DNA of 64,000 nt. Origin: Micrococcales bacterium 72-143 (lineage in GTDB: Bacteria; Actinomycetota; Actinomycetes; Actinomycetales; Microbacteriaceae). The notes under the pieces are model-generated. The model saw nothing but the letters and a program-made list of their open reading frames with translations. It was not told where the DNA came from and ran no database searches. Made by a program: the position numbers and the translations under genes. Below are positions 12,084-42,628 of the stretch, in pieces. Numbering within the stretch: position 1 is the first letter of the stretch; each line of letters begins with the position of its first letter. The stretch covers positions 248,001-312,000 of the forward strand of contig MKVM01000005.1 in the NCBI GenBank assembly GCA_001898835.1, in the 5' to 3' direction.

Positions 12084-14465
12084 ATGCGCCGCGCCGCACG
12101 GTTCGTCTCCCGCTACCGGGTCACCTTGGCCATGCTCCTCGTGTTCCTCGTGGTCAATGTCGTCAACGGCGCGCTGGTTCGCTACTTCGAGGCCGACGAC
12201 GCGCTCTACGGCGAGGTCGCGTACGGTCTGCCGTCGCTGCTCGAGGGGCGGTGGTGGACGCTCCTCACCGGCATGTTCTTCGTGTCGAACCTGTGGATCT
12301 ACATCCCGATCCTGCTGCAGTACGGCATCACCTCGGCCCTCTACGAGCGACGCGCCGGCCACGTGCGCACCCTGCTGGTGACGCTCGGCGGGCAGGCGCT
12401 CGGGTCGCTCCTCACGAGCCTGTCGGTGCTCGCGCTGCTGCCCACCGGCTGGCACTGGGCCGAGGATCCCGGATCCGACCTCGACACCGGGATGTCGATC
12501 GCCGCGTTCGTGCTGCTCGGCGCCCTCACCGCGCTCATGCAGCCGGTGTGGCGGCGGCGGGTGCGCGTCCTCGGCTGGACGCTCGTCGTCGTGCTGTTCC
12601 TCGACTCCGCGCAGCTCTGGGACCTGGAGCACCTCATCGGCTTCACGCTCGGGGTGTTCGCCGGCCCGTTCGTGCTGGGAAGGATGCCGCAGCGCCCCGG
12701 CGTGCGGTTGGGGCCCCGTACGCAGCGCGTGGTAGCCGCCACGATCGTGGCGATCGTGGGGCTCGAGACGATCATCGAGGGCTTCCTGCCCGCGGGACTG
12801 CCGCAGCTGTTCACCATCGAACGCACGGGCGCCCCGAGCGGCATCGACCTGACGCTCGTGGTGATCGCCCTGCTGTTGCTGTTCGCGGCGGATGCCCTGC
12901 GCCGCGGCCGGCGACTCGCCTGGGTCTTCGCGACGGCGTTCCTCGCGCTCGGGGTGTTCGCGATCGCCGTGATCGAGACGCGCGCCCAGCGCGTCGCCGA
13001 CCTCGTCGTCTTCGGCGGCGTGCTGCTCGTCCTGCTCACGACCGCTCGCGCGTTCACGGTGCGCACCCGGCACCGGGCCTTCCGGCGCACCTTGGCGCGC
13101 CTCGGTTGGGTGCTGCTCGTGCTCGTCTGTTATGCCGCTGCGGGGTTCTGGGCTCTGCAGGACGAGTTCCGGGTGCCCGCCACCCCGGCCACGGCGCTCG
13201 GCGAGTTCCTCGCGCGCCTGCTGTTCGTCGATCCGCACCTGCTCCACCCGACAAGCCATCTGGCGCGGCTCTTCCTGCACTCCATCGGGCTCGTCTGGGT
13301 TGCCGCGCTCGTCGTGAGCCTCGTGCGGCTGTTCTATTCGAGCCGCCGTCCGCCCCTGGACCCGGATGCGGCGGGGCGCCTGCGCGAGCTGCTGCGGCAT
13401 CACGAGTCCTCCACCGTGCAGTGGATGCTCACCTGGCGCGGCATCACCCCCTGGTTCAGCGCCGACGGGGAGACCGCGATCGGATACCGCCTCGTCGGCT
13501 CGGTGGCGCTCGCGCTGGGCGACCCGGTCGGCCCGCCCGGGCGGCGGATGGCGGCGCTGCGCGAGTTCGACGCCTTCTGCTTCGCGAACGGCTGGATTCC
13601 GTGCCTGTTCTCGGCAGGCGAGGAAACCGCCTCCGACGCGCCCTCGCTCGGGTGGAAGTCGGTGGAGATCGCCGAGGACTCGATCGTCGAGCTGCCGGGC
13701 CTCGCATTCACGGGGAAGCCGTGGAACGACGTGCGCACCGCCCTCAACCGCGCCGAACGCGAGGAGGTGGTGTACGCCGAGACGCGCTGGGCGGATGCCG
13801 CCCCGGTGGTCACCGACCAGCTGCGGATCATCTCCGGCGGCTGGGTCGACGACAAGGCGCTCCCCGAGATGCGGTTCACGCTCGGCACCCTCGCCGAGGC
13901 GGACGACCCGGAGGTGCGCCTCTCGCTCGCGACGGACGCCGACGGCACCATTCAGGGCTTCACCTCGTGGCTGCCGGTGCATCGCGACGGGGAGCCGGTG
14001 GGCTGGACCCTCGACCTCATGCGGCGCCGCGACGACGCCTTCCGGCCGGTCATGGAGTTCCTGATCGGCGAGGCGGCGCTCTCGTTCCGCGACCAGGGCT
14101 ACGAGTTCCTGTGCCTCTCGGCCGCGCCGCTCGCGAAGGCACCCGAGCGCCTCGACGCGAACTCCGACGGGCGGGTGCTGCAGCGCATCCTCGACTTCCT
14201 CGGCGGTGTGCTCGAGCCGTTCTACGGCTTCCGCTCGCTCTTCCGGTTCAAGCAGAAGTTCAACCCCGTGCACCGCGCCCAGTACCTGGTGTTCCCGGAT
14301 GAGACGGCGCTCGTCGAGATCGGCGTCGCGATCGTGCGCGCCTACCTGCCGGATGCCCGCGCCCGCGACTGGCTGCGCCTCGCGTGGGGCCTGGTGCGCC
14401 CCGAGCGCGAGGAGCCGGCGCGCCAGGCGGCCGGGACGGCTCCCGCCCCGACCGCCGCGGGCTGA
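12084..14465 (+). CDS. Rhomboid-like/DUF2156 membrane protein (MprF/LysX-type)
   Basis: A 793-residue protein in two parts. Residues 1-220 form about six helices resembling the rhomboid-like membrane domain (LLEGRWWTLLTGMFF, then DTGMSIAAFVLLGALTAL) without a clear protease dyad; 240-430 hold more helices. Residues about 440-780 are a DUF2156 GNAT-like aminoacyl-transferase domain (DPVGPPGRR, FSAGEET, LSAAPLAK), as in proteins that transfer lysine or alanine from tRNA to phosphatidylglycerol. The start is the ATG at 12084, 31 nt after the tRNA-Gly. Acceptor and amino acid are unknown. Confidence 0.82.
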   Translation: MRRAARFVSRYRVTLAMLLVFLVVNVVNGALVRYFEADDALYGEVAYGLPSLLEGRWWTLLTGMFFVSNLWIYIPILLQYGITSALYERRAGHVRTLLVTLGGQALGSLLTSLSVLALLPTGWHWAEDPGSDLDTGMSIAAFVLLGALTALMQPVWRRRVRVLGWTLVVVLFLDSAQLWDLEHLIGFTLGVFAGPFVLGRMPQRPGVRLGPRTQRVVAATIVAIVGLETIIEGFLPAGLPQLFTIERTGAPSGIDLTLVVIALLLLFAADALRRGRRLAWVFATAFLALGVFAIAVIETRAQRVADLVVFGGVLLVLLTTARAFTVRTRHRAFRRTLARLGWVLLVLVCYAAAGFWALQDEFRVPATPATALGEFLARLLFVDPHLLHPTSHLARLFLHSIGLVWVAALVVSLVRLFYSSRRPPLDPDAAGRLRELLRHHESSTVQWMLTWRGITPWFSADGETAIGYRLVGSVALALGDPVGPPGRRMAALREFDAFCFANGWIPCLFSAGEETASDAPSLGWKSVEIAEDSIVELPGLAFTGKPWNDVRTALNRAEREEVVYAETRWADAAPVVTDQLRIISGGWVDDKALPEMRFTLGTLAEADDPEVRLSLATDADGTIQGFTSWLPVHRDGEPVGWTLDLMRRRDDAFRPVMEFLIGEAALSFRDQGYEFLCLSAAPLAKAPERLDANSDGRVLQRILDFLGGVLEPFYGFRSLFRFKQKFNPVHRAQYLVFPDETALVEIGVAIVRAYLPDARARDWLRLAWGLVRPEREEPARQAAGTAPAPTAAG

Positions 14466-31958: not shown

Positions 31959-33008
31959 TCAGCGGGCGCCCGCGACCGCGTCGGGGCGCACGGCGGGCAC
32001 CGCGTCGTGCGGCTCCGGCAGGTGCTGCGGGGCCACCCGCTTGCGGAACACCCAGTAGCTCCACGCCTGGTAGGCCAGGATCACGGGCAGCGCGACACCC
32101 GTCACGACCGTCATGACCATGAGCGTGTACCCCCCGCTCGCGGCGTTCCAGATCGTGAGGTCGTAGGCCGGGTCGATCGTCGAGGGCAGCACGACGGGGA
32201 ACACCGCCGCGAAGATGGATGCCGCCCCGAACGCCCCGAACGCGGCGAACCCCGTGAAGGCCCAGCCCTCGCGGCGACGGCGGGCGAACACCCAGCCCGC
32301 CACACCGACGACGACCGCGAGCCCCAGCAGGATCCAGCTCACGACGTTCCCGCCCTGCAGCTCGACGAGGATGGCCCAGCCGGCGATCGGCAGCAGCGCG
32401 ACGGGGGCGAGGCGCGGGACGAGCCCGCCCATCCGCTCGCGCACCGGGCCGTCGGTCTTGAGCGCGAGGAAGGTCGCGCCGTGCACGAGGCAGAAGCCGA
32501 CGAGCGCCAGCCCGCCCAGCACCGCCACGGGCGTCAGCCACACGAACGGGCCGCCCACCCGGTCGCCGTTCGCGTCGATCGGCAGCCCGGTGGTCGTGAG
32601 GGCGAGGCCCGCGCCGATGCCGAACGCGGCGACGAGCGAGCCGAGGCCGATCGACCAGTCCCAGAACCGCGTCCAGGCGCGCGAGACGATCTTTCCGCGG
32701 TACTCGATCGAGACGGCCCGCATGATGAGCCCCAACAGCACGAGCACGAGCGGCACGTAGAGGGTCGAGAACAGCGAGGCGTACCAGTACGGGAACGCCG
32801 CGAAGGTGCCCGCGCCGGCGGTCAGCAGCCACACCTCGTTGCCGTCCCACACGGGCCCGATCGCGTTGAGCATCACGCGGCGCTGCTTCTCGTCGCGCGC
32901 GCTGAACAGCATGTGCATGCCGACGCCGAGGTCGAAGCCCTCGAGCAGGATGTAGCCGCCCCAGAGCACCGCGATCGCGACGAACCAGACGACGGGGAGT
33001 GCGTCCAT
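31959..33008 (-). CDS. cydB: Cytochrome bd ubiquinol/menaquinol oxidase subunit II
   Basis: A 349-residue protein with eight or nine helices, starting MDALPVVWFVAIAVLWGGYILLEGFDLGVG, the CydB signature. It pairs with CydA in the high-affinity terminal oxidase used at low oxygen. It lies 30 nt after cydA and 1 nt before cydDC, in one operon. Confidence 0.97.
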   Translation of the reverse strand: MDALPVVWFVAIAVLWGGYILLEGFDLGVGMHMLFSARDEKQRRVMLNAIGPVWDGNEVWLLTAGAGTFAAFPYWYASLFSTLYVPLVLVLLGLIMRAVSIEYRGKIVSRAWTRFWDWSIGLGSLVAAFGIGAGLALTTTGLPIDANGDRVGGPFVWLTPVAVLGGLALVGFCLVHGATFLALKTDGPVRERMGGLVPRLAPVALLPIAGWAILVELQGGNVVSWILLGLAVVVGVAGWVFARRRREGWAFTGFAAFGAFGAASIFAAVFPVVLPSTIDPAYDLTIWNAASGGYTLMVMTVVTGVALPVILAYQAWSYWVFRKRVAPQHLPEPHDAVPAVRPDAVAGAR

Positions 33009-33038: not shown

Positions 33039-34631
33039 TCAGTAGGCGAAGGCCAGGACGTCGTCGCGGTCGCCCGCTCCGGCATCCGTTCCGTCGCCCG
33101 GCTCGATGTCGTCGTGCGCGGCGAACAGCTCGGGCATGACGCCCGCGACGCCCGCCCGCACGAACCGGGCGAGGAGCATGACCTCGACGATCATGAGCAC
33201 GAGGTAGACGAGGCCGAGCGACACGAGCGAGAAGATGACCTCCCGCCCGTCGACACCCGGCGAGACGGCCGCCGCGGTGAACATGAACACCCCGTCGACG
33301 CCGCTCGGGTTGGGGTTGGGCGCCACCACGAAGGGCTGGCGGCCCATCTCGGTGAAGATCCAGCCCGCCGCGTTCGCGCCGAAGGGGGCCAGGATGCCGA
33401 ACACCGCGAGCTGCATGAGCGGCTTCGAGTTCGGCACGGTGCCCTTGCGGGTGATGAACAGGGCGACGGCGGCCGCGAACGCGGCGAGCGCGCCGAAGCC
33501 GATCATGATGCGGAAGCCCCAGTAGGTGACCTCGAGGTTCGGCAGGTAGTCGATGGCGGCCCCCGACCGCTCGCCGTAGATCGGGTCGTCGGGGAGGTTG
33601 GTGCCGTACTTCTCCTGGTACTCGGGGATCAGCTGGTTGAGTCCCGGGAGCTCGGTCGTGAAGTCGCCCTTGGCGAGGAACGACAGCATCCCGGGGATCT
33701 CGATGAGCGGCGTCACCTTGTCGCAGTCCTGCGAGCCGAGCTCCCCGATCGAGAGCACCGAGAAGCTCGTGCCCGTGTGGCAGGCCGCCTCGGCCGCCGC
33801 CATCTTGAGCGGCTGCTGCTCGTACATGAGCTTGCCCTGGATGTCTCCCGTGATCGCGACGGCGCCGAAGCCGACGATCGCGACGGCCGCGCCGATGCGC
33901 AGCGAGGTGATCCACACCCTGTGGTCCCGCGCGTCGCGGCCCGGGATCTCGGGCGCCTCGCCGACGATCACGCGACCCTTCGCATCCACGGTGTCGATCC
34001 CGTCGCGGCGGCGTCGCCACAGGTGGTACCAGCTGATGCCGAGCAGGAAGCCGCCGGCCACCGCGACCGCCCCCGCCATGGTGTGCGGGAACGCCGCGAG
34101 AACGGTGTTGTTGGTGAGCACGGCCCAGATGTCGACGAGCACCGGCTTGCCGTCGGTGAACTCGACACCCACCGGGTGCTGCATCCAGGAGTTCGCGGCG
34201 AGGATGAAGTAGGCCGAGATCCACGAGCCGATCACCGCGAGCCAGAGGGTCGCGAGGTGCACCCGCTTGGGGAGCCTGCCCCATCCGAAGATCCAGAGGC
34301 CGAGGAACGTCGACTCGACGAAGAACGCGAGCAGTCCCTCCATGGCGAGCGGGGCGCCGAAAACGTCGCCCACGAAGCGCGAGTACTCGCTCCACGCCAT
34401 CCCGAACTGGAACTCCTGCACGATGCCGGTCGCGACGCCCATGATGAAGTTGACGAGGTAGAGCTTCCCCCAGAACTTCGTCATCCGGAGCCACTTCTCA
34501 TCCCCGGTGCGCACCCACATGGTGTGCAGGATGGCGACGAGCAGGCCGAGCCCGAGCGTCAACGGGACCATCATGAAGTGGTAGACGGTCACGATGCCGA
34601 ACTGCCACCTGGCGATCTCGAGCGGATCCAC
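33039..34631 (-). CDS. cydA: Cytochrome bd oxidase subunit I
   Basis: A 530-residue protein with nine helices. The haem ligand His is in FGIVTVYHFMMVPLT (near 19); PHTMAGA carries the second His; GWIFTEMGRQPF matches the family's GRQPW loop with Phe for Trp. The Q loop is short, as in actinobacteria. GTG start with GGAGGAGG 7 nt upstream. First gene of cydA-cydB-cydDC, behind a DosR-like box and a separate palindrome. Confidence 0.97.
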   Translation of the reverse strand: MDPLEIARWQFGIVTVYHFMMVPLTLGLGLLVAILHTMWVRTGDEKWLRMTKFWGKLYLVNFIMGVATGIVQEFQFGMAWSEYSRFVGDVFGAPLAMEGLLAFFVESTFLGLWIFGWGRLPKRVHLATLWLAVIGSWISAYFILAANSWMQHPVGVEFTDGKPVLVDIWAVLTNNTVLAAFPHTMAGAVAVAGGFLLGISWYHLWRRRRDGIDTVDAKGRVIVGEAPEIPGRDARDHRVWITSLRIGAAVAIVGFGAVAITGDIQGKLMYEQQPLKMAAAEAACHTGTSFSVLSIGELGSQDCDKVTPLIEIPGMLSFLAKGDFTTELPGLNQLIPEYQEKYGTNLPDDPIYGERSGAAIDYLPNLEVTYWGFRIMIGFGALAAFAAAVALFITRKGTVPNSKPLMQLAVFGILAPFGANAAGWIFTEMGRQPFVVAPNPNPSGVDGVFMFTAAAVSPGVDGREVIFSLVSLGLVYLVLMIVEVMLLARFVRAGVAGVMPELFAAHDDIEPGDGTDAGAGDRDDVLAFAY

Positions 34632-34673: not shown

Positions 34674-34695
34674 AACCTTCCGACTGCGGAAGGTT
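34674..34695. promoter_or_regulatory. 22-bp palindrome over the cydA promoter
   Basis: AACCTTCCG (34674-34682), 4-nt spacer, CGGAAGGTT (34687-34695): a perfect 9-bp inverted repeat. It overlaps the predicted -10 region, so it suits a repressor, or a hairpin at the start of the leader. Confidence 0.65.
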
Positions 34696-34703
34696 CGGCG
34701 TCA

Positions 34704-34717
34704 GGGCCCAAGGTCCC
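34704..34717. promoter_or_regulatory. DosR-like box upstream of cydA
   Basis: GGGCCCAAGGTCCC; the opposite strand reads GGGACCTTGGGCCC, close to the mycobacterial DosR box. A start site 42.5 nt from its centre would fall near 34668, after GAAGGT (34675-34680). Confidence 0.72.
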
Positions 34718-34791
34718 GCGTCGTCGTACGCCCGAAGTCGGGGTCGGCGTGCGAGGCCGACCCGTCGATGAAGGCGCGACCGATGCGCGTG

Positions 34792-35150
34792 TCAGCTGCG
34801 CGCTCGACGTCCCGCCCTCTCGGCGAAAGCGTCAACAGCCCGAAGAACGTCGTCGGCTCGCCAAACGGGCCCGAAGCCGTGCTCCGCCTTGCGCGAGATG
34901 ATGCCCGCATCAGCGAGCTTGTTGAGCGACGGATACGCGTTGGGCAGTTGCACGCCGAGTTCCCGCGCGACGGTACGGGCGTCGAGCACGGGACGACGGG
35001 CGAACACGTCGAGCAGCCGCCACGCACCGCTGTCGCGTCGCGCGACGAGGCGTCCGTCCCACTCGGACCGGATGCGATCGATCTCGGCGATGAGGGTACG
35101 CGAGTTTGCGATCGGCGCATCCGCCGCCGCCGGCACGATGGCGGGCGCGC
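34792..35150 (-). pseudogene. Fic-family protein, C-terminal remnant
   Basis: The reverse strand encodes a segment with LIAEIDRIRSEWDGRLVARR, DSGAWRLLDVFARRPVLDA, LGVQLPNAYPSLNKLADAG and a closing FAERAGRR, which reads as the winged-helix C-terminal domain of actinobacterial Fic proteins. No HPFxxGNGR catalytic motif or sensible start lies upstream in any reverse frame; the following 100 bp look unrelated. I read it as a truncated Fic gene whose 5' part is lost. The upstream limit is approximate. Confidence 0.65.
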
Positions 35151-35268
35151 AGCTCAACGTCGACCTGCTCCTGGAGGACGCCGCGGCCCGCCGCGGGCGG
35201 CTCGACTGAGGAGCGCGTCGCACGGCCGAAACCGTCTCGAAGCCGGCGCTCCGTGGCAGCATGGGCGC

Positions 35269-35916
35269 ATGCCGCGATCGACATCCCGCGAGGTGGCCCG
35301 CGTGCGCACTCGCGGGCTCATCGCCATCGTCGCGGGCGTGGTCGCCGCCGTCGCCACCGCGCCCCTGCTGGGAGTCGCGGGCGGACTGCTCGCCGGCTGG
35401 ACGGTGCTCGCGCTCGTGAGCGTCGCCTGGGTGCTGCTGCTCGTCTGGCCCATGGATGCCGCCCAGACCCGCGCCCACGCGACCGCCGAGGACCCGGGGC
35501 GGCGGGTGGCGCGGTTCATCGCGATCCTCGGAAGCGTCGCGAGCCTCGGCGCCGTCGCCGTCGTCATCGTGCAGGCGAAGCACGCGCCGGCCCTGCTCTC
35601 CGCCCTGCTCGCGGGCGTCGCGGTGCTGAGCGTCGCCGCATCGTGGGCGCTCATCCAGGTCGACTACCTGCTGCGCTACGCGCACCTCTACTACGCGGCC
35701 CCGGTTGGCGGCATCGACTTCAACCAGGACCAGCCGCCTCAGTACACCGACTTCGCCTACTTCTCGGTCGGCCTCGGCATGACCTACCAGGTGGCCGACA
35801 CCGACGTGCGCGACGGAGGCATCCGCCGCATCGTGATCGCCCAGACGCTGCTCGCCTACCTCTTCGGGGCGATCATCCTCGGCACGATCATCAACCTCAT
35901 CACGAGCCTCGGCTGA
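35269..35916 (+). CDS. DUF1345 membrane protein
   Basis: A 215-residue protein with five or six helices and the DUF1345 core YTDFAYFSVGLGMTYQVADTD (about 162-182), a region resembling a potassium-channel pore segment. Function unknown. The ATG at 35269 has only a weak GGCAGCATGGG upstream. It lies between cydA and pta on the plus strand; the DosR-like box for pta begins 11 nt after its stop. Confidence 0.85.
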   Translation: MPRSTSREVARVRTRGLIAIVAGVVAAVATAPLLGVAGGLLAGWTVLALVSVAWVLLLVWPMDAAQTRAHATAEDPGRRVARFIAILGSVASLGAVAVVIVQAKHAPALLSALLAGVAVLSVAASWALIQVDYLLRYAHLYYAAPVGGIDFNQDQPPQYTDFAYFSVGLGMTYQVADTDVRDGGIRRIVIAQTLLAYLFGAIILGTIINLITSLG

Positions 35917-35926
35917 GCCGGCCGCC

Positions 35927-35940
35927 GGGCCCAACGTCCC
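35927..35940. promoter_or_regulatory. DosR-like box upstream of pta
   Basis: GGGCCCAACGTCCC. Its centre lies 43.5 nt before the predicted leaderless start of pta at 35977, the usual place for a NarL-type activator that overlaps the -35 region. Confidence 0.75.
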
Positions 35941-35963
35941 GCCCGCGGGCCGGCGCGCTCGCG

Positions 35964-35969
35964 TAGCGT
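35964..35969 (+). promoter_or_regulatory. -10 box of pta-ackA
   Basis: TAGCGT, 7 nt before the GTG at 35977. No ribosome site is present, so a leaderless mRNA is expected. Confidence 0.6.
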
Positions 35970-35976
35970 GGGGTGC

Positions 35977-38064
35977 GTGGCGACCCGCATCTACCTGACG
36001 AGCGCCGAGGGGCGCACCGGCAAGTCGACCGTCGCCGTGGGGCTCCTCGAGACCCTCACGGCATCCGTCCCCCGGGTCGGGGTGTTCCGGCCCATCGTGC
36101 GGGCGGATGTGGAGCGCGACTTCATCCTCGAACTGCTCGTCGCGCACGCGAGCGCCGGCCAGAGCTACGAGGACTGCGTGGGCGTCGACTACGACGCGCT
36201 GCACGCCGACCCGGATGCGGCGCTCGCCACGATCGTCGAGCGCTTCGCCGAGGTGGAGGAGCGCTGCGACGCCGTGCTCATCCTCGGCTCCGACTACACC
36301 GACGTCGGCACCCCCACCGAGCTCTCCACCAATGGCAGGATCGCCGCCAACCTCGCGGCCCCCGTCGTGCTCGTGACGGGCGGCCGGCATCCGGAGGGCG
36401 ACGGGGAGCGCACCGCGAAGCAGTGCGCCGAGATCGCCCGCATCGCCCTCGACGAGCTGCGCGAGGAGCACGCGGAGGTGCTCGCCGTCATCGTGAACCG
36501 TGCCCGGCCCGACCGGGTCGAGGAGATCGCGGCCAGGGTCGCCGACGCGACCGGTCTGCCCGCCTGGGCCATCGCCGAGGACCCCGAACTGCAGGCCCCG
36601 CTGCTGCGGACCGTCCTGGAGGCGGCGGAGGCGCACCTCGTGCGCGGCGACGAGGCAGCGCTCGAACGCCCCGTGATGGGCACCACGATCGCCGCGATGA
36701 GCCTCCCCAACGTGCTCCCCCGGCTGCACGCGGGCGGCGTCGTCATCGTGCCGGGCGACCGCTCGGAGGTGCTCGTCGGCACCATGGCGGCCCAGCTGTC
36801 GCAGACCTTCCCCGCGCTCGCGGGCATCATCCTGAACGGCGGGTTCGAGATCGACCCGGCGATCGAGCGCCTCATCGACGGGCTCGGCACGCCGCTGCCG
36901 ATCGCGAGCACCCCGCATTCCACCTTCGACACGGCGCTGCACGTCGCGCAGGCCCGCAGCCGGCTCGCCGCCGACTCGCCCGCGAAGCACGCCCGCGCGG
37001 TCGCGCTGTTCGCGGAGCACGTCGACGCGGCCGAGCTCGTGCGGCTGCTGAGCCTGCCGACGGGCGCGGGGGTCATGACGCCGATCCGCTTCGAGCACAC
37101 CCTCGTCGAACGGGCCCGCGCCGCGGCCAAGCACATCGTGCTGCCGGAGGGCGACGACGACCGCATCCTTCAGGCCGCCGCGCTCGTCGTGAAGCGGCGC
37201 ATCGCGAGCCTCACGATCCTCGGCGACCCGGATGCCGTGCGCGCCCGCGCCGCCGCGCTCGGCCTCGACCTCGGCGACACGCGCATCCTGTCGACGACCG
37301 ACCCCGAGCTGCACGCCCGCTTCGCCGAGGAGTACGCGCGGCTCCGGGCCCACAAGGGCGTCTCGCCCGAGCTCGCGGCCGACACGGTGACCGACGTGTC
37401 GTACTTCGGCACGATGATGGTGCACCTGGGCCTCGCCGACGGCATGGTGTCGGGGGCGAAGCACACGACGGCGCACACCATCCGTCCGGCGTTCGAGATC
37501 GTGAAGACGGCCCCGGGCGTCTCGGTCGTCTCGAGCGTGTTCCTCATGGCGCTCGCCGACCGGGTGCTCGTCTACGGCGACTGCGCCGTCATCCCCGAGC
37601 CGACCGTCGAGCAGCTCGCCGACATCGCCGTCTCCTCCGCGGCGACGGCGCGGCAGTTCGGCATCGAGCCGCGCGTCGCGATGCTCTCCTACTCGACCGG
37701 CGAGTCGGGCTCCGGTGCGGAGGTCGACCGGGTGCGTGCCGCCACAGCCCTCGTGCGCGAGCGGGCGCCCGAGCTGCCCGTCGCCGGCCCCATCCAGTAC
37801 GACGCGGCCGCCGACCCGACCGTCGGCGCGTCCAAGATGCCGGGGTCGGAGGTCGCCGGCCGCGCGACGGTGTTCGTGTTCCCCGACCTCAACACGGGCA
37901 ACAACACCTACAAGGCCGTGCAGCGCTCGGCGGGCGCCGTGGCCATCGGACCCGTGCTGCAGGGGCTCGCCAAGCCCATCAACGACCTCTCGCGCGGGGC
38001 GCTCGTGCGCGACATCGTCAACACCATCGCCATCACGGCGATCCAGGCGGAGGGGCGCTCGTGA
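35977..38064 (+). CDS. pta: Phosphate acetyltransferase
   Basis: A 695-residue long-form Pta: an N-terminal BioD-like P-loop domain (RTGKSTVAVGLLE, near residue 13), a DRTGG domain (about 215-330) and the catalytic PTA domain (about 370-690; SYFGTMMVHLG, HTIRPAFEIVK, FPDLNTGNNTYKAVQRS). It converts acetyl-CoA and phosphate to acetyl phosphate. The inner GTG at 35977 is preferred to one three codons earlier because of the TAGCGT box. Overlaps ackA by 4 nt. Confidence 0.96.
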   Translation: MATRIYLTSAEGRTGKSTVAVGLLETLTASVPRVGVFRPIVRADVERDFILELLVAHASAGQSYEDCVGVDYDALHADPDAALATIVERFAEVEERCDAVLILGSDYTDVGTPTELSTNGRIAANLAAPVVLVTGGRHPEGDGERTAKQCAEIARIALDELREEHAEVLAVIVNRARPDRVEEIAARVADATGLPAWAIAEDPELQAPLLRTVLEAAEAHLVRGDEAALERPVMGTTIAAMSLPNVLPRLHAGGVVIVPGDRSEVLVGTMAAQLSQTFPALAGIILNGGFEIDPAIERLIDGLGTPLPIASTPHSTFDTALHVAQARSRLAADSPAKHARAVALFAEHVDAAELVRLLSLPTGAGVMTPIRFEHTLVERARAAAKHIVLPEGDDDRILQAAALVVKRRIASLTILGDPDAVRARAAALGLDLGDTRILSTTDPELHARFAEEYARLRAHKGVSPELAADTVTDVSYFGTMMVHLGLADGMVSGAKHTTAHTIRPAFEIVKTAPGVSVVSSVFLMALADRVLVYGDCAVIPEPTVEQLADIAVSSAATARQFGIEPRVAMLSYSTGESGSGAEVDRVRAATALVRERAPELPVAGPIQYDAAADPTVGASKMPGSEVAGRATVFVFPDLNTGNNTYKAVQRSAGAVAIGPVLQGLAKPINDLSRGALVRDIVNTIAITAIQAEGRS

Positions 38065-39197
38065 GCGGCATCCGCAACGTCTTCGTGCTCAACGTCGGCT
38101 CGAGTTCCATCAAATACCAGGTGCTCGACGTCGAGACGGGCGAGGTCTTCGCGTCCGGGCTCGTGGAGCGGATCGGGGTGCCCGGCTCCGACACGCCGGA
38201 CCACGCCGCCGCCCTCGCGGTCGTGCTCGCCGAGCTCGCCGGGGTGCCGCTCGACGCGGTCGGCCACCGCATCGTGCACGGCGGCACCCGCTTCGTGCAG
38301 GCCACCCTCATCGACGACGACGTGGAGCGCGAGATCGAGGCGCTCGCCGATCTCGCGCCGCTCCACAACCCGCCGGGGCTCGCCGGCATCCGTGCCGCTC
38401 GCGCCGCGCTGCCCGAGCTCCCGCACGTCGCCGTGTTCGACACGGCGTTCCACGCGACCATCACCCCCGCGGCCCGCGACTACGCGATCGACGCGGAGGT
38501 CGCGGCGCGCACCCGCATCCGGCGCTTCGGCTTCCACGGCACCTCGTACCGCTACGTGTCGCGGATCGCGGCGGAGGTGCTGGGTCGCGTGGGCGACCCC
38601 GAGCTCAAGCTCGTCGCGCTGCACCTCGGCAACGGCGCCTCGGCGACCGCCATCCAGGGCGGCCGCTCGGTCGACACCTCGATGGGGATGACGCCGCTCG
38701 AGGGACTCGTGATGGGCACCCGTTCCGGCGACATCGACCCCGCGATCCCGCTCTACCTCGCGCGCGAGCACGGTTTCACGATCGCCGAGCTCGACGAGCT
38801 GCTCAACAAACGGTCGGGTCTCCTGGGGCTCGCGGGCCGCAGCGACATGCGCGAGCTCGTCGCGGCGGCCGAGTCGGGAGACCTGCCGGCGGCGCACGCC
38901 CTCGACATCTACGTGCACCGGCTGCGCCACTACATCGGCGCCTACGCGGCCGTGCTCGGCGGCATCGACGCGCTCGTCTTCACGGCCGGGGTCGGGGAGA
39001 ACTCGGATGTCGTGCGCCGGCGCGCGGTCGCGGGCCTCGAGTTCCTGGGGCTCGCGGTCGATCCGGCGCTCAACGCGGTGCGCTCGCACGAGCCCCGCGT
39101 CATCTCCCCCGCCGGCTCGCGTACCGCCGTGCTCGTCGTGCCCACGAACGAGGAGCTCGAGATCGCCCGGGAGACCCGCACCGCGGCGGGCCGCTGA
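38061..39197 (+). CDS. ackA: Acetate kinase
   Basis: A 378-residue kinase with FVLNVGSSSIKY at the N terminus, HRIVHGG, FDTAFHATI, GFHGTSYRYV and the ATP-site GNGAS and GVGEN motifs. It makes ATP and acetate from acetyl phosphate, completing the overflow/fermentation route with pta, useful when respiration is limited. GTG start within the pta stop. Confidence 0.97.
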   Translation: MSGIRNVFVLNVGSSSIKYQVLDVETGEVFASGLVERIGVPGSDTPDHAAALAVVLAELAGVPLDAVGHRIVHGGTRFVQATLIDDDVEREIEALADLAPLHNPPGLAGIRAARAALPELPHVAVFDTAFHATITPAARDYAIDAEVAARTRIRRFGFHGTSYRYVSRIAAEVLGRVGDPELKLVALHLGNGASATAIQGGRSVDTSMGMTPLEGLVMGTRSGDIDPAIPLYLAREHGFTIAELDELLNKRSGLLGLAGRSDMRELVAAAESGDLPAAHALDIYVHRLRHYIGAYAAVLGGIDALVFTAGVGENSDVVRRRAVAGLEFLGLAVDPALNAVRSHEPRVISPAGSRTAVLVVPTNEELEIARETRTAAGR

Positions 39198-39235
39198 CCC
39201 CCGCCCTCCCCCAGCGATGGCATGCCTCCGCCCCT

Positions 39236-39380
39236 CCCCGCCGGTTGAGTAGCGCCGCGCCGCGGCGCGTATCGAAACCCCCCGCACGACGGATGGCGAC
39301 GGGGCATGCGCACCCTCACCTCTCACGCGTGCCGAGGGTCTCGATACACCGCCTGCGGCGGCACTCGACCAGCGGGAGGC
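39236..39380. repeat. Paired palindromic repeat elements
   Basis: Two inverted copies of one family fill the 200-bp gap after ackA: CCGGTTGAGTAGCGCC ... GCGTATCGAAACCCC (about 39240-39281) and GAGGGTCTCGATACAC ... ACTCGACCAGCGGG (about 39331-39373). Each has its own GC-rich palindrome, and together they can form a long stem. Confidence 0.75.
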
Positions 39381-39398
39381 GGGCGCGGCGCTGAGCCG

Positions 39399-40199
39399 CT
39401 ACGGGCGCACCACGAGCACCGGCGCGTTCGCGTTGAGGAGCACCGCGTGCAGCGTCGTGCCGAGCGGGGAGGGGGTGGCCGCGCCGGGACCCACCACGAG
39501 CAGCGCGCTGCCGCGGGAGGCGTCGAGCAGCGCGTCCGCGGGCGGGCGGGCCGACAGGCGCGAGCGGATCTCGAGCATCCCCTCGACGGCGAGCGCCGCA
39601 TCCGCCGCGAGCGCCAGCGGGCTCTCGGCATCGGCCCGCGAGCCGTGCGCGAGCTCGGCGGGCACCGCGTGGACGAGGGTGAGCCGCATCCCGCGCTCCG
39701 CCGCCTCGCGGGCGGCCCGGGCACCGATGAACGCCGCCGTCTCCGTGCGGTCGACACCCGCGACGACCCCCTCGCGGAACCGCGGATCGAAGACCGGCAC
39801 GACCGCGACGTCGCCGCGCGCCGCGAGCGCGAACTGCACGCTGCGCGAACCCAGCACGCGCCCCGACACGTATCCCGTCTTCCCGGTGCCGACGACGACC
39901 GTGTCGCCTGCGCCGGCACGCTCGGCGATCGTCCACACGGGCACCCCGCTCAGCAGCTCCGTCGACACCTCCAGCCCCGGATGGGCGGAACGGATCTCGC
40001 GCGCCGCCCCCGACAGCAGCCGCTCCCCCGCCGCCTCCGCCTCGTCGAGCAGCGCGAGGTCGTGCATCGCCTGCTCCGGGTCGGCCACGTGCACGAGGGC
40101 GAGCCCCGCGCCGTCGCGGCGGGCGTGCCGCACCGCCCAGGCGAGCGCGGCGTCCGCGGGCGAGGAGCCGTCGACGCCGACGACGTAGCGGGAACCCAT
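39399..40199 (-). CDS. Tandem universal stress protein
   Basis: A 266-residue protein with two UspA domains (about 1-135 and 140-266). The first begins SRYVVGVDGSSPADAALAWA and ends with the ATP-binding VVVGTGKTGYVSGRVLGSRS; the second ends LLVVGPGAATPSPLGTTLHAVL. Tandem Usp proteins are prominent DosR targets in mycobacteria. The ATG lies 42.5 nt from the centre of a DosR-like box, with GACGCT as a weak -10, so the gene is probably leaderless and DosR dependent. Confidence 0.9.
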   Translation of the reverse strand: MGSRYVVGVDGSSPADAALAWAVRHARRDGAGLALVHVADPEQAMHDLALLDEAEAAGERLLSGAAREIRSAHPGLEVSTELLSGVPVWTIAERAGAGDTVVVGTGKTGYVSGRVLGSRSVQFALAARGDVAVVPVFDPRFREGVVAGVDRTETAAFIGARAAREAAERGMRLTLVHAVPAELAHGSRADAESPLALAADAALAVEGMLEIRSRLSARPPADALLDASRGSALLVVGPGAATPSPLGTTLHAVLLNANAPVLVVRP

Positions 40200-40234
40200 C
40201 TCCCGAGCGTCGCACCCGGATGCGGACGCGGCCC

Positions 40235-40248
40235 GGGCCCAAGGTCCC
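40235..40248. promoter_or_regulatory. DosR-like box upstream of the universal stress gene
   Basis: GGGCCCAAGGTCCC, identical to the cydA box and also followed by GCG. Centre 42.5 nt from the stress-protein ATG. Confidence 0.75.
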
Positions 40249-40267
40249 GCGGGCCCCTCCGATCGCT

Positions 40268-40322
40268 GAGTGGTCGGTTCCCGGTCCCAAAACCCGGGAA
40301 TGAGGCGATCAACCGACCACTC
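40268..40322. repeat. Nested inverted repeat
   Basis: GAGTGGTCGGTT (40268-40279) pairs with AACCGACCACTC (40311-40322); within it TTCCCGG (40278-40284) pairs with CCGGGAA (40294-40300), so two stems compete. TGGTCGGTT-N-CCGG recurs at 62.5 kb. It lies between the divergent stress-protein and sensor-kinase genes. Confidence 0.7.
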
Positions 40323-40361
40323 GGCGAACGGAGGCCCGGGGATGCCTGGGAGGATGGGGGC

Positions 40362-42014
40362 ATGCCCGCCCCCGACGCCGACGAGCCGCGCCTGCGCCGC
40401 CTGCTGGACGTCGTGCCGCAGGTCATCGGCGAGCTCGACCTGGACCACGTGCTCGAGCGGATCATCGACGCCGCCGTCGACCTCGTCTCCGCCCGCTGGG
40501 GCGCGCTCGGGGTCATCGCGCCCGACGGCACCCTCGAGCGGTTCGTGCACGTCGGCATGGCGCCGCCCGAGGTCACCGCGATCGGCCACCTGCCGGAGGG
40601 TCACGGCCTGCTGGGGGCGGTCATCGACACGGGCGAGCCGATCCGTCTCCCGCACCTCGCCGACGACCCGCGCTCGGTCGGCTTCCCCGCCCACCACCCG
40701 CACATGGACGCCTTCCTCGGCGTGCCCATCCGCATCCGCGACACGGTCTTCGGCAACCTCTACCTCACCAACCAGGACGGCGGGCCCGAGTTCTCGGAGG
40801 AGGACCAGCGGCTCGTCGGCTCGCTCGCGGCGGTCGCGGCGATCGCGATCGAGAACGCACGGCTGTTCGACGAGCAGGTGCGGCGCGAGCGGTGGTCGAC
40901 CGCGCTCGCCGAGGTGACCGCGGCGCTGCTCTCGGAGGACACCGTCGACGTGCTCGCCGTGCTCGCGGAGCGCGTCGCCTCGGTGATCGACAGCGAACTC
41001 GTGTGCGTCATCGTCGCCGACGGCGCCGACGACGGCGAGCCCATGCTGCGCGTCGACACGGCGCGCGGTGTCGGCGCCGAGGAGCTCATCGGCCGGCGCT
41101 ACCGCGCGGCGGGCACGCTCTCGGGGCACGCCATCACGTCCGGCACGATCGCCTCGACGGAGGGGGCCGAGCGGGCCGAGTCGGTGCTGCGCGACGGCCC
41201 GAGCGCCGCCATTGCGCTCCCGGTGCGGGCAGGCGACCTCGTGCTCGGCGCCCTCAGCGTCTACCGCCGCGCCGAGTCGCCGCGGTTCACGGATGCCGAA
41301 CGCGCCATGGCCGCCGAGTTCGCCCAGCAGGCGGGCATCGCGATCGAGCTGACGCGCGGCCGCACCGACCGGCAGCGCCTCGCGCTCGTCGAGGACCGCG
41401 CACGCATCGCACGCGACCTGCACGACCACGTCATCCAGCGCCTGTTCGGCACGGGCCTCGCCCTGCAGTCCGTCGGCGCGCGCACCCCGGCGGCCGCGGA
41501 GGCGATCGCCGCCCAGGTCGACGCGATCGACGCGGCGATCGGCGAGATCCGCACCGCCATCTTCGCCCTCGCGCCCCGCGCCGGCTCGGACGGCGCCCTC
41601 CGGCACCGGCTGCTCGACGTGTCGACGGATGCCGCCGCCGGCCTCGCGAACCCGCCCCTCGTGACCTTCGCGGGACCCGTCGACCTGCTCGTCGGCGGAT
41701 CACTCGCCGACGACGTGATCGCGGTCGTGCGCGAGTGCCTCGCCAACGCCGCCCGCCACGCGCACGCGAACCGTGTCGAGGTCGCGGTGACGGTCGACGA
41801 CGAGGCCGTCGTCGTGACGGTGGACGACGACGGGGTGGGGATCCCCGCGGGGGCGCGGCGCGCATCCGGCACCCGCAACCTCGAGGAACGCGCGCGGCGC
41901 CGGGGCGGTAGCTTCGAGGTGGCCGCACGAGAGCCGGGCGGCACCCGCGCCCGCTGGACGGCCCCCGTCGCCCCGGCATCCGCCGAGACCGCCCCCGAGA
42001 GGAGCACCCCGTGA
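40362..42014 (+). CDS. dosS: DosS/DevS-like GAF sensor histidine kinase
   Basis: A 550-residue soluble kinase: GAF-A (about 25-165), GAF-B (about 185-330), HisKA_3 with phospho-acceptor His354 in RDLHDHVIQRLFGTGLALQ, and HATPase (ECLANAARHA, DDDGVGI). The motif FPAHHPHMDAFLGVP aligns with mycobacterial DosS so that His112 takes the place of the haem ligand His149, and Tyr134 in GNLYLT that of Tyr171. It likely senses O2, NO or CO through haem. It overlaps the regulator gene by 4 nt. Confidence 0.92.
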   Translation: MPAPDADEPRLRRLLDVVPQVIGELDLDHVLERIIDAAVDLVSARWGALGVIAPDGTLERFVHVGMAPPEVTAIGHLPEGHGLLGAVIDTGEPIRLPHLADDPRSVGFPAHHPHMDAFLGVPIRIRDTVFGNLYLTNQDGGPEFSEEDQRLVGSLAAVAAIAIENARLFDEQVRRERWSTALAEVTAALLSEDTVDVLAVLAERVASVIDSELVCVIVADGADDGEPMLRVDTARGVGAEELIGRRYRAAGTLSGHAITSGTIASTEGAERAESVLRDGPSAAIALPVRAGDLVLGALSVYRRAESPRFTDAERAMAAEFAQQAGIAIELTRGRTDRQRLALVEDRARIARDLHDHVIQRLFGTGLALQSVGARTPAAAEAIAAQVDAIDAAIGEIRTAIFALAPRAGSDGALRHRLLDVSTDAAAGLANPPLVTFAGPVDLLVGGSLADDVIAVVRECLANAARHAHANRVEVAVTVDDEAVVVTVDDDGVGIPAGARRASGTRNLEERARRRGGSFEVAAREPGGTRARWTAPVAPASAETAPERSTP

Positions 42015-42628
42015 CCCGCGTCTTCCTCGTCGACGACCACGAGATCGTGCGGCGCGGCATCGCCGAGCTGATCGACGCCGAGCGCGACCTGGAGGTGGTG
42101 GGCGAGTCGGGGCAGGTGCGCGGCACGCTCGCCAAGATCGACGTCGTGAAGCCCGACGTCGTGGTGCTCGACGTGCGCCTGCCCGACGGCGACGGCATCG
42201 AGCTGTGCCGCACCATCCGCTCGGCCCTGCCCGAGGTGCGCTGCCTCATGCTGACCGCCTACGACGACGACGAGGCGAGCCGTTCCGCGGTGCTCGCGGG
42301 GGCGTCCGGCTACGTGCTGAAGGACATCCGGGCCCGCGGGCTCGTGGAGGGGGTGCGGAAGGTGGCGGCGGGCGGCACGCTGCTCTCGACGCACGTGACG
42401 CAGCGGGTCGCCGAGTCGTTCGCCGGGCCGCAGGGCGACGAACCCGAGCTGACGCTGCGCGAACGCCAGGTGCTCGACCTCATCACCGAGGGCCTCACCA
42501 ACCGCCAGATCGGCGAACGGCTGGGTCTCGCCGAGAAGACCGTCAAGAACTACGTGTCGGGGCTGCTCGCGAAGCTCGGCATGGAGCGGCGGACGCAGGC
42601 CGCCGTGTACCGGCTCGAACACAGGTAG
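42011..42628 (+). CDS. dosR: DosR/DevR-like response regulator
   Basis: A 205-residue NarL-family regulator with Asp54 in VVVLDVRLPDGDGIELCR and a LuxR domain whose EGLTNRQIGERLGLAEKT and VKNYVSGLLAKLGMERRTQA nearly repeat the DosR recognition region. Phosphorylated by the upstream kinase it should bind GGGACC-TTGGGCCC-like boxes, three of which lie within 8 kb. GTG start coupled to the kinase stop. Confidence 0.93.
   Translation: MTRVFLVDDHEIVRRGIAELIDAERDLEVVGESGQVRGTLAKIDVVKPDVVVLDVRLPDGDGIELCRTIRSALPEVRCLMLTAYDDDEASRSAVLAGASGYVLKDIRARGLVEGVRKVAAGGTLLSTHVTQRVAESFAGPQGDEPELTLRERQVLDLITEGLTNRQIGERLGLAEKTVKNYVSGLLAKLGMERRTQAAVYRLEHR

Follow-up and report, generated by a model that had tools for sequence, protein, structure and literature searches.

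A 64,000-nucleotide stretch of the genome of Micrococcales bacterium 72-143 (hereafter the window; contig MKVM01000005.1, positions 248,001 to 312,000, or G000:C5:248001-312000 in our numbering) was found to carry a probable DosS/DosR (DevS/DevR) oxygen-response module, the regulon of which appears to have been rewired to cydAB, pta-ackA, usp and a gene encoding a PNPOx-like flavoprotein. We put the probability of this reading at about 0.87. Given that a 14-base-pair (bp) palindrome, termed here the DosR-type box, is predicted to lie over the -35 region of these genes, as in mycobacterial DevR promoters, DosR most likely activates them directly upon loss of oxygen (O2) from the heme kinase. 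So far DosR has been known chiefly for its part in dormancy, and usp genes are standard DosR targets. The genome comprises 3,330,479 bases on 6 contigs, and the genes and promoter elements in question are as follows (nt, nucleotides; aa, amino acids; E, expectation value).

34704-34717, minus strand: DosR-type box of the cydAB promoter, sequence GGGCCCAAGGTCCC, reading GGGACCTTGGGCCC toward cydA
34674-34680, minus strand: cydA -10-like element, GAAGGT at 34680-34675 or AAGGTT at 34679-34674, 30.5 or 31.5 nt from the box centre
33039-34631, minus strand: cydA, cytochrome bd subunit I, 530 aa, GTG start; Pfam Cyt_bd_oxida_I, E 4e-149
31959-33008, minus strand: cydB, cytochrome bd subunit II; Pfam Cyt_bd_oxida_II, E 1e-95
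35927-35940, plus strand: DosR-type box of the pta promoter, GGGCCCAACGTCCC, centre 43.5 nt upstream of the GTG
35964-35969, plus strand: pta -10 element TAGCGT, predicted leaderless, 30.5 nt from the box centre
35977-38064, plus strand: pta, phosphate acetyltransferase, 695 aa, domains AAA_26-DRTGG-PTA
38061-39197, plus strand: ackA, acetate kinase, overlapping the end of pta
40235-40248, minus strand: DosR-type box of the usp promoter, GGGCCCAAGGTCCC, reading GGGACCTTGGGCCC toward usp, centre 42.5 nt upstream of the ATG
40206-40211, minus strand: usp -10-like element GACGCT, 30.5 nt from the box centre
39399-40199, minus strand: usp, tandem universal stress protein, 266 aa, two Usp stretches (Pfam)
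40350-40355, plus strand: dosS -10-like element GAGGAT, predicted leaderless, 108.5 nt from the usp box
40362-42014, plus strand: dosS-like kinase, 550 aa, GAF-GAF-HisKA_3-HATPase
42011-42628, plus strand: dosR-like response regulator, 205 aa, with D54, K104 and K176/K179/N180

The sensor and the regulator

The protein encoded by dosR has DevR of Mycobacterium tuberculosis as its best match in the PDB (3c3w, E 2.7e-66). Its receiver domain keeps D54, D8/D9 and K104, and a LuxR-type C-terminal domain is present. An earlier note on this DNA, made from the sequence alone, had stated that the regulator keeps Asp54 and a near-identical recognition region; alignment confirmed the aspartate and showed the recognition region, EKTVKNYVS, to be identical to that of M. 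tuberculosis DevR. By alignment, K176, K179 and N180 correspond to K179, K182 and N183 of M. tuberculosis, where K179 and N183 are DNA-contact residues. K182 has been described as a DNA contact of M. tuberculosis DosR (PMC5999986).

Within DosS, Pfam recognised two GAF stretches, HisKA_3 and HATPase_c, and the first GAF domain (GAF-A) resembles the heme GAF of DosS/DosT. The best PDB matches of GAF-A were 2vzw (E 3e-42), which is listed as a probable histidine kinase and is presumably DosT, and DevS GAF entries (E 6e-37 to 7e-36). His112 and Tyr134, which the earlier note had equated with His149 and Tyr171 of the reference DosS, do align with these two residues (H147 and Y169 in DosT), reported to be the proximal heme ligand and the distal residue, respectively (PMC4082495). 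Gly50 occupies the position of DosS Glu87, where DosT has Gly85 (PMC4082495). Kinases of the DosS/DosT type are characterised by heme binding and by an activity that is off with O2 and on in the deoxy, CO or NO state. Since His112 and Tyr134 stand at the positions of His149 and Tyr171, and Gly50 matches DosT Gly85, a DosT-like oxygen pocket is predicted for GAF-A.

The box in the window and in the genome

The three near-identical boxes that had been reported before cydA, pta and usp were all recovered at the positions listed above, together with the distances from box centre to start codon for pta and usp. Allowing at most one mismatch, the window contains 3 matches, compared with a mean of 0.06 in 100 dinucleotide shuffles, none of which reached 3. 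As for the frequency of the box in promoters and in genes, the 3.33-megabase genome holds 4 exact copies, all in promoters, and the reversed control gave 0. The fourth copy (L001, contig C3) precedes, by 43.5 nt, the ATG of a gene for a 172-aa protein with no Pfam family (L001 1551-2069); the promoter of this gene is of the leaderless type and shares the -10 TAGCGT with pta.

A relaxed pattern, GGGYCSAANGWCCC, matched 7 sites in the genome and 0 in the reversed control. Besides the four exact copies, they comprise L005, L121 and L126. Of these, L121 lies between an EamA-like transporter gene and a Pyridox_ox_2 (PNPOx-like) gene. A repeat or terminator identity was considered for the relaxed sites: six of the seven precede genes, and the remaining one (L126), within a longer hairpin between convergent genes, was set aside as a terminator. 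A box with one mismatch (L005) was found 43.5 nt before a TetR-family gene. Gene starts beyond the window were assigned via homology and the position of the -10 element, and two of the sites, L001 and L121, are overlapped by longer frames. The compact locus of the earlier note, with cydAB, pta and usp beside dosSR, makes up just a portion of the probable regulon: the PNPOx-like, 172-aa and TetR genes are boxed elsewhere.

Conservation within the genus

Nine genomes of the genus, the source genome included, were compared. A DosR ortholog with at least 84% identity was found in 8 of the 9, and all eight carry the box before cydA, pta and usp. For scoring, a matrix was trained on the genus cydA, pta and usp sites, with the PNPOx sites excluded. 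The PNPOx-like ortholog (77-100%) occurs in the same eight genomes, and every one of its boxes scores at least 14.4; among the usp boxes the weakest, at 12.6, is that of G001. Relaxed-motif sites in the other genus genomes were also found in coding sequence (L115, L118 and L129) and between convergent genes (L116), while L117, before an unidentified frame, was left out of the count.

The ninth genome, G003, has no DosR ortholog (best match 45%), no CydA at E<=1e-60 and no usp in the 20-kilobase (kb) locus, and its best PNPOx relative (47%) is unboxed. Within its pta-ackA-dps cluster, the pta promoter retains TAGCGT and GTG without the box.

Relatives of the 172-aa gene are present in all nine genomes, and the box is strong in the source genome only; with a best score of 9.8 among the other eight (G004, same place) and at most 8.7 in the rest, the gene was rejected as a conserved target. 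Before cydA of G008 (L110) we observed two boxes, at 13059-13072 and 13088-13101, 29 bp apart. A similar, degenerate pair occurs at L109, and the arrangement resembles the multiple Dev boxes of mycobacterial promoters.

Promoter geometry

In all 32 boxed promoters of the genus (cydA, pta, usp and PNPOx, eight each), a hexamer nAnnnT starts 29.5-32.5 nt downstream of the box centre, at 30.5 nt in 24 and at 31.5 nt in 11, with some promoters having both; other 4-nt windows contain it in 0-10 of 32. Outside the genus, all 15 boxed promoters (11 of cydA and 4 of pta; other windows, 0-2 of 15) show the same spacing, which is therefore kept in 47 of the 47 boxed promoters examined. The distance from box centre to assigned start codon varies, being 42.5-87.5 nt for cydA, pta and usp and 60.5-69.5 nt for PNPOx. 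Given the fixed spacing to the -10-like hexamer, the box is placed over the -35 region, and about 42.5 nt separate its centre from the predicted start point downstream. Overlap of -35 by the Dev box proximal to the transcription start point is a known DevR arrangement (PMC3029386). This fixed spacing, the PNPOx site and the same-genus genome without DosR go beyond what the earlier note had described.

Scanning of 80 dosR loci gave nine with cydA within reach, eight of them with a testable upstream region. Four fit the spacing: L017 (Curtobacterium, 30.5), L068 (Amycolatopsis, 31.5), L071 (Lacisediminihabitans, 29.5) and L093 (Nanopelagicales, 32.5). At L027 the box is present and the hexamer at that spacing is absent; at L064 a site scoring 14.6 lies just 11.5 nt before the aligned start, with no hexamer; and no site was found upstream of the dosR-linked cydA at L039 (7.8) and L045 (-1.2).

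Survey across the family

A total of 149 genomes from 76 genera were surveyed in the family, most likely Microbacteriaceae. Pta, full or partial, was detected in 133 (E<=1e-150), CydA in 121 (E<=1e-60) and a DosR ortholog in 54 (E<=1e-60). Full-length type-A CydA, the type found in the window, is present in 34 genomes, and DosR occurs in 20 of these 34 vs 34 of the 115 others (p=0.0024). Promoters were scored with the matrix from genus sites only and called boxed at a score of at least 9. The cydA sample from DosR-positive genomes consisted of 26 promoters (19 type-A outside the genus, that of G142, three other dosR-linked and three unlinked), and that from DosR-negative genomes of 14, which are all of their type-A promoters. 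The cydA promoter was boxed in 11 of 26 DosR-positive cases and 0 of 14 DosR-negative ones (p=0.0036); for type-A cydA only, the counts were 9 of 19 and 0 of 14 (p=0.004). A distance of at most 15 kb between dosR and cydA was found in 13 of the 54 DosR-positive genomes, two of them in the source genus, and dosR-linked cydA was boxed in 8 of 11 cases vs 3 of 15 for unlinked cydA. For pta, 47 of the 54 DosR-positive genomes were sampled, leaving out 2 genus genomes and 5 with partial Pta matches, together with 33 promoters of DosR-negative genomes that were chosen from the higher-identity Pta hits, not from all. The counts of this survey therefore suggest that, across the family, DosR targets cydA repeatedly and pta occasionally, the latter in about four genera, the source genus among them.

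A TAnnnT -10 immediately before the GTG, the leaderless-type arrangement of pta, was seen in many sampled family promoters, with or without DosR. As this -10 occurs either way, the pta box would seem to have been added to a promoter that already existed.

By eye, seven cydA promoters without a strong DosR box (L233, L235, L239, L214, L250, L223 and L222) carry a palindrome-like element, TTCTAC...GTAGAA, which suggests another cydA regulator swapping with DosR. The boxed cydA promoter of G054 (L225) seemingly carries this element too.

Points against direct control and alternative explanations

Several points weigh against a DosR regulon of this composition. All transcription start points are predicted, from -10 elements, and the genus scores for cydA, pta and usp are circular, since the matrix was built from those sites. 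Genome-wide, the box with one mismatch gave 5 matches and its reversed control 7, which makes the count with one free mismatch uninformative. In G007, divergent cydA and pta have one common box, and in G001 the boxes persist although dosR is broken into two overlapping frames (G001:C1:104851-105463, part of L113). Across the family, 15 of the 26 sampled DosR-positive cydA promoters score below 9, two of them (G065 and G134) at 8.9, and 2 of 26 reach 9 in the reversed-sequence control. Outside the genus, pta was boxed in 4 of 47 DosR-positive genomes vs 0 of 33 DosR-negative ones (p=0.14); the four are G034, G042, G154 and G120, the last with a sub-threshold score of 8.3 at the same place, and a site before pta of G056, scoring 9.7 and 95 nt away, was not counted. 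The Fisher p values given here ignore shared ancestry. Finally, autoactivation of dosSR from the usp box was considered and received no support, with activation geometry in 0 of 8 genomes: the predicted leaderless -10 of dosS lies 18.5-108.5 nt from that box across the eight. Because it is never at an activating distance, the autoregulation typical of other DosR systems appears to be absent here.

The split dosR of G001 may reflect an assembly error or a decaying gene, and the most degenerate usp box is also found there. In G005, G006 and G008, the usp box would overlap the dosS promoter.

Direct DosR control over cytochrome bd and pta-ackA, as the earlier note had proposed it, nevertheless appears strongly supported by the eight genus genomes, G003, the co-occurrence in the family and the spacing, and the claim is qualified by the pta box, which is patchy in the family. 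Far behind direct activation, the next most probable explanation is that DosR binds the boxes and represses cydA and/or pta, or acts on them as a modulator. The good TAGCGT -10 of pta could allow expression without DosR, and in G003 and many sampled unboxed relatives pta must be DosR-independent. We consider repression or modulation improbable, given that the box is placed over -35 in 47 of 47 promoters examined, the known activating DevR arrangement, and that the weak -10 elements of cydA and usp (GAAGGT and GAnnCT) would be expected to need help.

Marginally less probable is that another LuxR/NarL-family regulator uses the boxes as its operators, with dosSR a mere neighbour. NarL-family sites are similar palindromes, and the genome contains 27 DosR-like matches at E<=0.001, DosR included. 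However, the box tracks the DosR ortholog across the sampled genomes, and G003 keeps 17 related matches yet has neither DosR nor the pta box. The identity of the recognition region to that of M. tuberculosis DevR also speaks against another regulator, and the genus matrix also detects sites published for DevR and OsdR (15.3 for M. tuberculosis hspX, 10.9 for fdxA, 13.0 for the Streptomyces OsdR consensus and 8.6 for the OsdR uspA site). A chance origin, GC-rich palindromes in a GC-rich genome, was rejected as having almost no probability: the relaxed-motif sites located within genes or between convergent ones (L115, L116, L118, L126 and L129) and the reversed one-mismatch control would fit it, but it is contradicted by the shuffles, by the conservation of the cydA, pta, usp and PNPOx boxes in 8 of 8 genomes and by the spacing.

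Neighbouring features

From left to right, the gene order in the window is cydB and cydA (minus strand), a short winged-helix-like frame, a gene for a DUF1345 membrane protein, pta-ackA (plus), the tandem-domain usp (minus), dosS-dosR (plus) and dps (plus). The winged-helix-like frame (34795-35226, minus strand) has a weak TrmB match, below the cut-off, and possibly encodes a small regulator. The -10 of cydA lies inside a perfect 9-bp inverted repeat, AACCTTCCG-ACTG-CGGAAGGTT (34674-34695), which by eye is similar in some genus genomes and is possibly a second cydA operator.

Comparison with known systems

The DevR/DosR systems of M. tuberculosis and M. avium and the module described here are alike in the heme-GAF kinase, the NarL-type regulator, the palindrome over -35 and the usp targets, whereas boxes before cydAB and pta-ackA set the source genus apart. 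The PNPOx-family gene MAV_4110 of M. avium is strongly induced at low oxygen and less expressed in a dosRS mutant (PMC11876180). Its likeness to the PNPOx target of the source genus is at the level of the family. By locus number, MAV_4110 adjoins dosR (MAV_4109).

Crp, PrrAB and Rex are other regulators with other sites, whereas the cydA box of the source genome is a DosR-type palindrome tied to the presence of DosR. Rex controls cytochrome bd in Streptomyces. As oxygen or respiration fails in M. smegmatis, Crp and PrrAB increase or control cytochrome bd (PMC7739888, PMC6898941). For the same species, excerpts of PMC7739888 place cydAB outside the 49-gene DevR regulon, report similar hypoxic induction of cydA without devR (data not shown there) and put Crp in control, and a study of the carbon monoxide response lists cytochrome bd apart from DosR-regulated proteins (PMC8125079). 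The word start 'cyd' gave 0 matches in the texts of the DosR papers on M. abscessus and M. avium (PMC11876180). In Streptomyces coelicolor, OsdK/OsdR (SCO0203/0204) includes a functional DevR ortholog with the consensus AGGGCCGATCGGCCCT and a uspA site, GGGGCCGACCGTCCCT (PMC5069765), and the text of that paper gave 0 matches for 'cyd' and 'acetate'. DosR control of cydAB or pta-ackA appeared in none of the titles and abstract openings listed from the open literature searched, and our claim of novelty is limited to that literature, since this negative rests there.

A site is predicted before the gene of OsdR itself (PMC5069765), whereas the dosS of the source genome has no box in activation geometry. 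In M. avium, excerpts of PMC11876180 do not count dosS and dosR among the differentially expressed genes and give a putative motif before dosR. Autoregulation of the dosR operon is common in DosR systems and not definitional.

Proposed mechanism

From the anatomy, conservation, co-occurrence and spacing observed above, we infer oxygen signalling, phosphorylation, binding and activation in four steps. Judging by homology and the conserved residues, the heme-GAF kinase DosS would phosphorylate DosR at Asp54 once O2 is lost. Phosphorylated DosR would then bind the 14-bp palindrome GGGNC-WW-GNCCC, as the identity of the recognition region and the co-occurrence of box and DosR suggest. With the box replacing a -35 element, DosR would recruit RNA polymerase to promoters with weak -10 elements, and cydAB, pta-ackA, usp and, elsewhere in the genome, the PNPOx-like flavoprotein gene would be switched on. 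Cytochrome bd, a high-affinity oxidase, would take over low-oxygen respiration, Pta-AckA would convert overflow acetyl-CoA to acetate with a gain of ATP, and Usp and PNPOx would form the classical protective arm. With such a gene set, DosR in this genus would drive microaerobic respiration and acetate overflow as well as stress genes, beyond dormancy.

A more speculative extension, which we regard as unlikely, is that acetyl phosphate from DosR-induced Pta phosphorylates DosR at Asp54 (feed-forward) or acetylates K179 (a brake), so that carbon overflow would tune the oxygen response and, in this family, DosR would be a respiratory and fermentative energy switch. Such a loop is conceivable because pta-ackA is a putative DosR target and the lysine is conserved (K179, equivalent to M. 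tuberculosis K182). In vitro, acetyl phosphate serves as a phosphate donor to OsdR (PMC5069765). M. tuberculosis DosR regains strong DNA binding on treatment with acetyl phosphate (PMC12919924) and no longer binds DNA once K182 is acetylated (PMC5999986). If true, the DosR energy switch would have been assembled by a portable, -35-replacing box dropped onto existing promoters.

Implications

The spacing offers a promoter rule for predicting DosR regulons, with about 30.5 +/- 1 nt between box centre and -10 hexamer, and G003, of the same genus without the system, provides a natural control. Regulon rewiring through one 14-bp element, gained or lost at a fixed spacing, may thereby become directly testable outside mycobacteria. 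In this genus, DosR and its box appear to be wired to a high-affinity oxidase and acetate production, whereas DevR of M. smegmatis is reported not to control cytochrome bd.

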